This document shows positions 509-4,926 of a stretch of 8,495 nucleotides of DNA, piece by piece (position 1 is the stretch's first letter; the number at the start of each line of letters is the position of its first letter). Source of the DNA: Treponema sp. (GTDB lineage: Bacteria > Spirochaetota > Spirochaetia > Treponematales > Breznakiellaceae); assembly GCA_009776715.1 (NCBI GenBank), contig WRNF01000058.1, positions 1-8,495 on the forward strand, read 5' to 3'. Below the pieces are notes generated by a model. That model saw only the letters and a program-made list of their open reading frames with translations. It was not told the origin of the DNA and did no database searches. The position numbers and the translations under genes were made by a program.

Positions 509-1060
509 GGTATAGTTGTTGGGCTCTCAAATGCAAAAAAACTCCTTGACGAATTAATATTTCGCAAGTATGGCCGGACATGGGATTCCGCAAGATGTAG
601 AAATCAGCAATGCTGCGATACTCAATGCTTTGAAACTGACAAAGGGTAATTACATTTTAAAGGCAGGAGTCCTTCTTTTTCACCAGGCCCCGGATCAGTG
701 GTGTTATGGTTCTTATGTGAAAATTGGCTACTTTGATAATGATGTAGACTTGCGGTATCAGGATGAAATAAACGGTCTGCTTATCAGTGGACTTGTTCGA
801 CAACCCGGTTGGTTGTCTCACAAGTCAGGCACTTTTTAAGGCAAAGCCTTAAAAAGTGCTGTTTTTCTAAGGATGTTGTTCAGAAACTGAAGTTTCCGAA
901 CAACTCTAGTATCGCCGATCGTGTGATGGATGTCATATACGCCAAATATTTCAAGGGTTGGATTCGCTACGAGGGTATTCAACGGATAGATAAATATCCT
1001 TTGCCTGATGCTGTTCTGCGTGAGGCTGTACTGAACGCTGTTGGAATTCCTACCTCCTAA
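509..1060 (+). pseudogene. Decayed AlbA_2/Schlafen-type ATP-binding regulator gene
   Basis: Remnants of one protein are recognisable in several frames. A piece at about 515-590 reads VGLSNAKKLLDE then LIFRKYGRTWDS, resembling the end of the AlbA_2 (Schlafen-type) nucleic-acid-binding domain. A one-base shift near 587-592 leads into 570-frame sequence (QDVEISNAAILNALKL ... DEINGLLIS). After a 122-base insert the frame resumes at 911 with ADRVMDVIYAKYF and ends in YEGIQRIDKYPLPDAVLREAVLNAV, the ATP-binding N-box of RecG-like C-terminal domains. The expected HRDY after LNAV is missing and a stop follows at 1058-1060. The N-terminal part of AlbA_2 and the end of the ATPase-like domain are absent. 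At least one frameshift, one insertion and deletions are therefore present, and the gene is not functional. An intact relative of the superfamily lies at 3545-4873. Confidence 0.75.
786..910. mobile_element. 119-bp three-hairpin element with AGT flanks
   Basis: Bases 789-907 are bounded by AGT at 786-788 and 908-910. The ends are imperfect inverted repeats (GGACTTGTTCG against the complement of 897-907, 9 of 11 matching). The interior is almost wholly three consecutive hairpins. Hairpin 1 pairs 791-805 with 811-825, broken only by TC/TC. Hairpin 2 is a perfect 14-bp stem, 829-842 with 846-859, loop AAA. Hairpin 3 pairs 875-887 with 892-904, 12 of 13 matching. It has no coding capacity. It interrupts a Schlafen-type gene; removing 122 bases (element plus one AGT) joins ...GLLIS to IADRV... 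in frame, which fixes both borders. Confidence 0.75.
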
Positions 1061-3544: not shown

Positions 3545-4873
3545 TTATAGTACTTTTCTATAACGGGTTTTCTTTCCTCCGTCAATAACCCGAATAGCAC
3601 CCTTGTCTATCAATCCTCGTAAAAGTCGTACAGCCTTAGCCTGAGATATAGCAAGAGCAGTCTCCGCATCATTTCTGGTTATTTCGGCTTTCTTATCAAA
3701 CAAGGCAATTATTTTTTCTTCATTCTCGGTAAAATAGGATGTTAAACCGGTTGTTTTATAGATTGAAGCATTTCTGTTTGGCAGAGTAATTTTGAACGCG
3801 TTGTTTGTTGTCTGTAATTCCGGTTTTTTTGCACAGTAGGCATAGCTGCGCATGATTTTTGGAATACCTGTGCCAAAGGCTTCTATCAGATGGAGCCGGT
3901 AAAATACATTGGCAAGATTTTCATTCCTGGGTACAGATAGGCCCAGCAGTATATCATCAAGAGACACGCCCTTTGGCAAGCCACCAATAGAAACGAACTC
4001 AATACGGTCATCAAAGACGCTGATAAGAGTACTGCTTGAAAAAGCATAATCCCGGTGAACCAGCGCATTAAGCAACGCTTCCCGTAAGGCATCCTCCGGG
4101 TAGTCCCGTTTTTCCAGGCGAGTGAGTCCTTTTATTTCTGCATGGGTACGATTGTGTATATCCAGGTGCTCGTAAACCTCACTGAGTTGCCTTAGCAGAG
4201 AACCGGAAAATTCCCGTCGATCTTTGAAAACCACTTTTTCAAGTCCCTCAAAGACAGCAAGTTTAACAGTGTGCACACATTGGTCGGAAAGTAAGATGCC
4301 CAAATTAGTATACACACCGTCAACAGTCTGCAAGTGAAGTGTTTTATACTGATTCGGACCAAAGGGAACATTTTCCATCTTAAAAAACTGCTCCGTTGCA
4401 CTAAAGGTCAAATCCTGATTTAGAGAGCGTACTTTCTCGTACTGAGTTCCATCGGTCTCTTTTATCATGTTGAGGATAGCCGTCTCAGTGGCCGGAACCG
4501 ATGCTGCCCCCTGGCGGACGTAAACTCCTTCGGGGCGTATACCTTTACCGGCTAAATAATAGGGACAGGCGGTTCCTTTTTGTACAGTCACAATTATTAT
4601 GACGGATCTCCCTATTTTTTCTGTCTTGTAATCCACAAACATGGTAATGTCAGGTTTGATGGAGGAGCGTACTGTATTGGTTATTTGAAGCAGAACATCA
4701 TCAGGATTGTCCACGCCGTATATCGACTTGTCATCATTGACGCCAATATAGAGTGTTCCCCCTGCAGTGTTGGCAAAGGCGATTAAAGCCTTTTTGATTT
4801 CCTCGGTATATTCCCGCTTGAATTCGGTGGTAAGGCCTTCTCCGGCTTCTATGTGTTTTATGTCAAATGCCAT
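3545..4873 (-). CDS. AlbA_2/Schlafen-type regulator with RecG-like ATP-binding C-terminal domain
   Basis: This is an intact 442-residue protein. Residues about 10-130 form the AlbA_2 (divergent AlbA, Schlafen-type) domain, with TEFKRE at 16-21 and AFANTAGGTLYIGVNDD at 32-48. Residues about 255-350 form the GHKL-like domain that databases call ATP-dependent helicase RecG-related: REALLNALVHRDY (264-276, E265 and N269 in the N-box), IEFVSIGGLP (291-300) and EAFGTGIPKI (331-340). Residues about 385-440 look like a winged helix (ITRNDAETALAISQAKAVRLLRGLIDKGAI). Such proteins are predicted transcription regulators or stress/defence proteins; no helicase motifs are present and the exact role is unknown. 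The start at 4873 has AGGAG six bases upstream. A 9-bp tandem repeat lies in its promoter. A decayed relative sits at 509-1060. Confidence 0.88.
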   Translation of the reverse strand: MAFDIKHIEAGEGLTTEFKREYTEEIKKALIAFANTAGGTLYIGVNDDKSIYGVDNPDDVLLQITNTVRSSIKPDITMFVDYKTEKIGRSVIIIVTVQKGTACPYYLAGKGIRPEGVYVRQGAASVPATETAILNMIKETDGTQYEKVRSLNQDLTFSATEQFFKMENVPFGPNQYKTLHLQTVDGVYTNLGILLSDQCVHTVKLAVFEGLEKVVFKDRREFSGSLLRQLSEVYEHLDIHNRTHAEIKGLTRLEKRDYPEDALREALLNALVHRDYAFSSSTLISVFDDRIEFVSIGGLPKGVSLDDILLGLSVPRNENLANVFYRLHLIEAFGTGIPKIMRSYAYCAKKPELQTTNNAFKITLPNRNASIYKTTGLTSYFTENEEKIIALFDKKAEITRNDAETALAISQAKAVRLLRGLIDKGAIRVIDGGKKTRYRKVL

Positions 4874-4890
4874 TGCTCACTCCTGCTTAC

Positions 4891-4926
4891 TAATCATTCT
4901 AATCATTCTAATCATTCTAATCATTC
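4891..4926 (-). repeat. Four exact tandem copies of a 9-bp unit in the promoter region
   Basis: TAATCATTC is repeated four times without a mismatch (GAATGATTA on the coding strand of the downstream gene). The array starts one base after a TTGACA and ends seven bases before the AGGAG of the regulator gene at 4873. Perfect short tandem arrays between promoter and start codon can change copy number by slipped-strand mispairing. Confidence 0.95.

Follow-up and report, generated by a model that had tools for sequence, protein, structure and literature searches.

The three-hairpin insert of a Treponema AlbA_2/RecG-like gene is a MITE, probably of IS5 type, with smallest units of REP size

A segment of three hairpins stands inside a broken AlbA_2/RecG-like gene in the window (the whole stretch of 8,495 nucleotides that was analysed), and this raises the question of what the segment is and how it came to be there. 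An earlier note, made from the letters alone, had taken it for a small structured repeat that is, or was, mobile. The insert (789-907) belongs to a large MITE-like family found in Treponema and other Spirochaetaceae. We put at roughly 85 % the probability that it is a non-autonomous MITE moved by a DDE transposase, which would probably be supplied in trans by an IS5-type element sharing its ends. The evidence on the family, the empty sites and the IS comes from related genomes, not from that of the host itself.

The insert and the gene that it interrupts

The insert is 119 bp long and has AGT on both sides (786-788 and 908-910). These borders, as drawn in the earlier note, were borne out by the sequence and by the ANT-flanked copies of the family. 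Inverted terminal repeats are present, the left one (GGACTTGTTCG) and the inverted right one (AGAGTTGTTCG) being alike at 9 of 11 positions. As DNA the insert folds at −35.5 kcal/mol, compared to a mean of −13.2 for shuffled sequences (z −8.0; none of 200 shuffles was as good), and as RNA it gave a z value of −7.9. The DNA fold returned the three adjacent hairpins that had been described before: the first (790-826) has 7+7-bp arms around a 2x2 internal loop, the second (829-859) a 14-bp stem with a 3-nt loop, and the third (875-904) a 7+5-bp stem with one mismatch. Rfam models gave no match to the window at the gathering threshold. An intact relative of the interrupted gene, at locus L162, codes for a protein of 444 aa with the domains SLFN_AlbA_2 and HATPase_c_4 and served as the reference for the following features; by themselves, the two pieces of the gene in the window matched no Pfam family.

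509-592, plus strand: two short gene remnants (509-556 and 545-592), with losses between and around them (tblastn of the L162 protein)
591-788, plus strand: gene remnant left of the insert, 71 % identical to residues 158-223 of the L162 protein
786-788, no strand: left copy of the 3-bp target duplication, AGT (sequence; single AGT in L162/L163; ANT in the family)
789-907, plus strand: three-hairpin MITE copy of 119 bp, GGACTTGTTCG...CGAACAACTCT (fold; family copies)
790-826, plus strand: hairpin 1, read as an IS end followed by its own imperfect inverse (fold; 17-bp ends of the L142 IS; paired changes)
829-866, plus strand: hairpin 2 (829-859) and a T-run (862-866), terminator-like (fold; middle parts of copies)
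875-907, plus strand: hairpin 3 and right end, the most conserved module (fold; basis of the family and right-end scans)
908-910, no strand: right copy of the target duplication, AGT (sequence; comparison with L162)
908-1042, plus strand: gene remnant right of the insert, 78 % identical to residues 223-267 of the L162 protein

The pieces on the two sides of the insert abut exactly, residue 223, which is common to both, being the duplicated AGT codon. In L162 and in a second relative, L163, the gene is uninterrupted and has a single AGT at the insertion place, which confirms the insertion and its borders. A third relative, L164, is without the insert and without the AGT too. Related intact genes with the hairpins in frame, which according to the earlier note would have spoken against mobility, were thus not encountered, all three relatives lacking the insert. 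Further upstream, tblastn with the L162 protein placed residues 39-54 at 509-556 and residues 112-127 at 545-592; residues 55-111, 128-157 and everything past 267 were not found at the window's place. The claim that removal of the insert restores the broken gene therefore holds for the junction, where the pieces join exactly at one AGT codon, but not for the gene as a whole, which because of several further lesions is not restored by losing the insert.

The window has another gene of this kind, uninterrupted and of 442 aa (3545-4873, minus strand; SLFN_AlbA_2/HATPase_c_4), which shares about 25 % identity with the L162 protein. Just upstream of its start, at 4890-4925, the 9-mer CTAATCATT stands four times in tandem.

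Copies, target duplications and empty sites in related genomes

Further copies, the lack of which in every related genome the earlier note had regarded as fatal to its view, were found at many places in related genomes. The hairpin-3 pattern matched at least 120 stretches in named genomes. The matches listed are titled Treponema, Spirochaetaceae, Spirochaetales or Spirochaetia, and with one exception they are marked as metagenome assemblies; the assembly TD114a_bin7 predominates. Going by the isolate codes, the hosts are probably termite-gut bacteria. When the whole element was compared with 16 searchable genomes (17 loci), with at most 40 candidates scored per genome, all 16 gave matches, the best being 89 % identical. 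When the substrate-binding gene was used to look for the closest genome, the best match was 86 % over 83 bp. The right-end pattern, with up to 3 mismatches, was present in 106 of 195 genomes of the same bacterial family, and its reversed control had no match among the rows listed. The highest counts were 112+112 (G001) and 95+100 (G079), sums that are upper bounds, as the near-palindrome may count on both strands. In viral contigs the palindromic hairpin-3 pattern had no match, and the 17-mer GGACTTGTTCGACAACC occurred in six stretches, none of which continued into the rest of the element; five phage records were matched, each over no more than 26 % of the query. Five of 98 copies lay within open frames of 100 aa or more, a test which frames split by an insert escape. 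In searches of open literature, outside which most subscription journals fall, no title or abstract listed dealt with such elements of treponemes or termite-associated bacteria. The family may help to explain the fragmentation of treponeme assemblies, many stretches of TD114a_bin7 starting or stopping in a copy.

Two-ended copies were obtained from 130 hairpin-3 places, 62 of which were dropped because of a contig edge or because no hairpin 1 lay within 400 bp. Identical 3-bp flanks were present in 53 of the 68 copies left (window included), compared to a shuffle mean of 23.6 and a maximum of 36 in 2000 shuffles; 15 copies were without equal flanks. In 43 distinct copies of 95-128 bp, chosen by equal flanks only, the flanks were ANT without exception (24 ATT, 13 AAT, three AGT and three ACT). 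The preferred target is wider, namely YANTR, with a pyrimidine before and a purine after the ANT.

Empty sites with a single AGT, which the earlier note had suggested looking for, are those of L162 and L163 for the copy in the window, and single-triplet sites were found for two other three-hairpin copies, both of which have inserted into repeats. The repeat hosting the copy at L095 is empty with a single triplet in L043, L154 and L067 of TD114a_bin7, the left flanks being 85 % alike over 47-62 bp and the right flanks 92-96 % over 24-25 bp. The repeat hosting the copy at L096 is empty, likewise with a single triplet, in L158 and L039 of the same assembly, with flanks 93-95 % alike. The script that was used gave 60 pairs for 158 elements, of which 39 were alignments of the one locus L185 to other copies and were discarded as artefacts; also not used as empty sites were L229/L242 (too diverged), L045/L111, L043 and pairs with a gap of +5 or +7. 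TD114a_bin7 has other families of hairpin repeats as well, observed at L039, L067, L095 and L103 (e.g. GGACTGTCC... and AGAAGGTGTCCGAACAA...), and these have received insertions of the MITE.

The copies, the duplications and the empty sites in relatives support the view that the structured repeat is or was mobile. The insert has the traits of a MITE: it is short and multi-copy, contains no transposase gene, and has inverted ends, a target duplication and empty sites. It thereby resembles the prokaryotic MITEs as characterised in PMC10969869, i.e. short, non-coding elements, usually of 50-500 bp, with inverted ends, a target duplication and presumed mobilisation in trans.

At several loci (L013, L029, L050, L064, L105, L116, L127 and L128) hairpin 3 and the right end are followed by ANT or similar, with no hairpin 1 within 400 bp. 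These copies, several of them close behind coding sequence, seem to be 5'-truncated or to represent another form.

Among copies with duplications, a start 0-3 bp behind a stop codon was counted for 6 of 65 full copies and 5 of 20 solo units (the single-hairpin units described below), as against 48 of 2948 intergenic YANTR sites, which served as background; stops that the element itself could supply were left out. Insertions directly behind stops are apparently enriched, those of solo units especially (L009-L128, L191-L216). As TAAT is one of the targets and an insertion right after a gene may simply do no harm, no mechanism was drawn from this enrichment, which may reflect target choice or survival alike.

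The probable IS5-type partner and a proposed origin of the three hairpins

An IS of about 860-900 bp with the same left end as the MITE, ANT flanks and an IS5-like transposase was found in related genomes. The earlier note had pointed to an autonomous IS with GGACTTGTTCG ends as something to be sought, and an IS5-like element with perfect 17-bp ends was indeed found. At L142 such an insertion of about 0.9 kb has the ends AGACTTGTTCGACAACC; the element of the window begins with GGACTTGTTCGACAACC. The left end of the MITE agrees with this IS end at 16 of 17 positions and the right end (AGAGTTGTTCGGAAACT) at only 11 of 17. An IS bearing the exact right end of the MITE was not present among the IS loci examined, nor was a transposase found between paired ends in the first loci examined. 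The L142 IS has flanks that are ANT yet unequal (AAT, ATT). Its reading frame is disrupted, and the pieces gave matches to HTH_Tnp_4 and DDE_Tnp_4. For IS transposase pieces, the Pfam families DDE_Tnp_1 and DDE_Tnp_4 scored above cut-off, and the top NCBIfam match was an IS5 model (E 2.8e-28 for a 200-aa piece), its 99 bits lying below the cut-off of 140. DDE_Tnp_1 transposases occurred in 6 of 8 genomes and DUF4096 transposases in one of 8.

By inspection, both IS ends were recognised in 7 of 26 further loci (L226-L251), giving eight loci together with L142, and in four of the eight (L228, L233, L236 and L238) the two flanks are one and the same ANT triplet. At their inner positions the ends differ between ISs but mostly agree within a given IS. 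Seven loci of TD114a_bin7 share an IS right end, each time adjoining ANT in different flanks. All seven stop 112-118 bp into the IS, and in five the match begins 4-7 bases from a contig start, as if the assembler had collapsed an IS present in many copies.

In its length (close to 0.9 kb), its end repeats of some 17 bp and the pair HTH_Tnp_4 and DDE_Tnp_4, the IS resembles the ISL2 group of the IS5 family, to which it may belong, with IS5 model scores below cut-off. The ANT duplication is a trait of this group as well. A run of at least 6 A was present at conserved GKKRH codons in 7 of 30 loci examined, and several genomes gave two transposase matches in different frames, overlapping near residues 54-69, from which we infer that the transposase may be made by frameshifting. 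A possible two-frame transposase would resemble two ISL2-group elements of 914-916 bp, ISCaa2 and ISCaa3, for which a −1 frameshift is given where two frames are used (PMC3196728). The table rows for ISL2 elements in that source give no direct repeats, and neither a three-hairpin form nor one of 36-39 bp appears in its passages on these elements.

Relatives of the 200-aa transposase piece from TD114a_bin7 turned up in 4 of the 39 genomes that represent the genus and in 51 of the 195 that represent the bacterial family. By our own count over the 195 genomes, the right end was carried by 30 of the 51 genomes with the transposase and by 76 of the 144 others. With no association between the two, the count gives mobilisation in trans no support, although fragmented assemblies easily lose IS copies and old copies outlive their enzyme. 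A separate IS is located in the window at 1162-2401. Its 27-nt inverted ends are 89 % complementary and differ from those of the MITE, and its 281-aa transposase frame matches DDE_Tnp_1 and DUF772 and scores 248 bits with the IS5 model (cut-off 140).

The mechanism that we propose begins with a DDE transposase that would cut the YANTR target with a 3-bp stagger, leaving the ANT duplication. The enzyme would probably be supplied in trans by the IS5-type (ISL2-like) element of about 0.9 kb, with which the MITE has an end sequence in common. Two IS ends brought back to back would have formed hairpin 1, a second, palindromic end would be hairpin 3 at the right, and hairpin 2 may be read as variable filling; the smallest units, of 36-39 bp, would be two ends fused. 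Several loci of TD114a_bin7 (L016, L017, L018, L020 and others) have a longer hairpin 1, in whose loop and stem further hairpins are nested (TGCGAACCTTCGGTTCGAGTTGG, CATGTCAGCTACGCTGACCAG), and from these variants the element seems to grow by added palindromes.

It is improbable that the copies are instead kept as RNA elements, i.e. portable terminators or mRNA hairpins, with the duplication as a relic. The stems are kept by paired changes, as would be expected of such elements: hairpin 1 has 36 cells with both sides changed, distributed over 8 of its 16 pairs, compared to an average of 9.2 and at most 17 in 1000 shuffles, and hairpin 3 has 14, compared to an average of 4.7 and at most 10. These values come from 33 distinct sequences of hairpin 1, all with one layout, and 20 distinct sequences of hairpin 3, and the shuffles ignore relatedness. 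Variant IS ends, however, would account for the paired changes of hairpin 1, with no function as RNA or single strand required. Among the middle parts, 38 of 40 distinct ones fold at −4.7 kcal/mol or better, mostly as a stem followed by T, and the position of copies behind stop codons (counted above) would also suit a terminator. Against this, hairpin 2 varies and is absent from L043, L063 and L124, all with proper duplications, so it is not needed for movement. The copies also have no preferred orientation relative to the upstream gene (34 same, 32 opposite), which does not support a terminator kept by selection, and this candidate was rejected.

The hairpins could also be recognised as single-stranded DNA by a tyrosine transposase, in an element like those of REP/RAYT or IS200/IS605. 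The families of these two kinds are not known to leave a target duplication on insertion. Such a derivation was rejected, as 3-bp duplications are present at most copies and the empty sites have one triplet; together with ends in common with a DDE-type IS, this makes it highly improbable in spite of the palindromic build, the high copy number and the REP-like size of the solo units. REPs and REPINs, as described in PMC3733652, are likewise palindromes of 20-40 bp in high copy; they differ in being linked to RAYT tyrosine transposases, whereas here there are a 3-bp duplication and a DDE-type partner. That the insert is part of the gene, as an in-frame insertion or an intron-like segment, can practically be dismissed, for although its start is open in the frame of the gene for 16 codons before a stop, in three relatives the gene lacks it, and its sequence is met again at places that have nothing to do with this gene.

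Single-hairpin units of 36-39 bp

Relatives of the MITE that consist of little beyond two fused ends appear to have jumped too. A pattern of left-end and right-end motifs with 18-21 bases between them had 26 matches in 11 of 39 genomes, compared to one match of its reversed control in the 39 genomes, and all 26 units were 36-39 bp long. Identical 3-bp flanks were present in 20 of them (19 ANT and one CTT), with a shuffle mean of 10.5 and none of 5000 shuffles as high; six were without identical flanks. Of 156 cells at inner positions of the stem, 131 are paired, compared to at most 125 in 2000 shuffles. For a 37-bp copy (L054, the same place as L204) there are three distinct empty sites with a single ATT in the same assembly (L103/L160, L095 and L063/L215). 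The repeat that hosts it is diverged and the junction is exact, the left flank being 90-94 % alike over 32-42 bp and the right flank 68-72 % over 120 bp. A general scan for solo hairpins was discarded: it gave 204 candidates, 5 of them with equal flanks, and mostly found hairpins inside larger elements.

Bacterial genomes commonly contain very small palindromic repeats, and it is not well settled how the smallest ones move. Very small repeats of cyanobacteria have reportedly been described as mobile (Elhai et al. 2008). What seems new here is the size range, which goes down to two fused ends. Units this small are not without precedent, given that copies of the Coxiella QMITE1 are listed at 39 to 400 bp, the short ones being less conserved, in the account of that element in PMC10969869.

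We consider it possible, but rather doubtful, that the unit of 36-39 bp, palindromic throughout, is in its own right a transposable element of an IS5-type transposase, used as a cruciform or through the ends of paired copies. Outer ends about 37 bp apart could hardly be joined on a straight helix, and the unit may therefore work as an extruded cruciform, in which both ends would meet at the base of the hairpin. Alternatively, the ends of two solo copies could be paired together. If this were true, the palindrome would be needed for transposition, which would explain inner stem positions that differ and are yet complementary. With units of 36-39 bp that carry 3-bp duplications, one of them with empty sites in its own genome, and a candidate enzyme with ends of the same kind, the question of the smallest workable transposon could be put to the test on a substrate of about 40 bp, for which a single small gene would be enough.

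Other hairpin-rich sequences were observed as well. In the window, a second such element (259-411; fold z −7.0) has imperfect inverted ends (TAGGAGCCTGTCGGACTTG / TAGGAGTTTGTCGGGCTTTG) and is flanked by GC-rich sequences that form an inverted repeat with one another; among the fetched loci, only L127 has similar ends. The plasmid pTS1 of Treponema saccharophilum carries a 36-bp palindrome between two ATT (L008, L218), a single case. In pTS1 and pTS2 together (L007, L008, L217-L225), one pattern gave nine palindromes of the form CCTGTTC...GAACAGG, of which one lies between two ATT and the others share in part a flank of the AACATCGC type.
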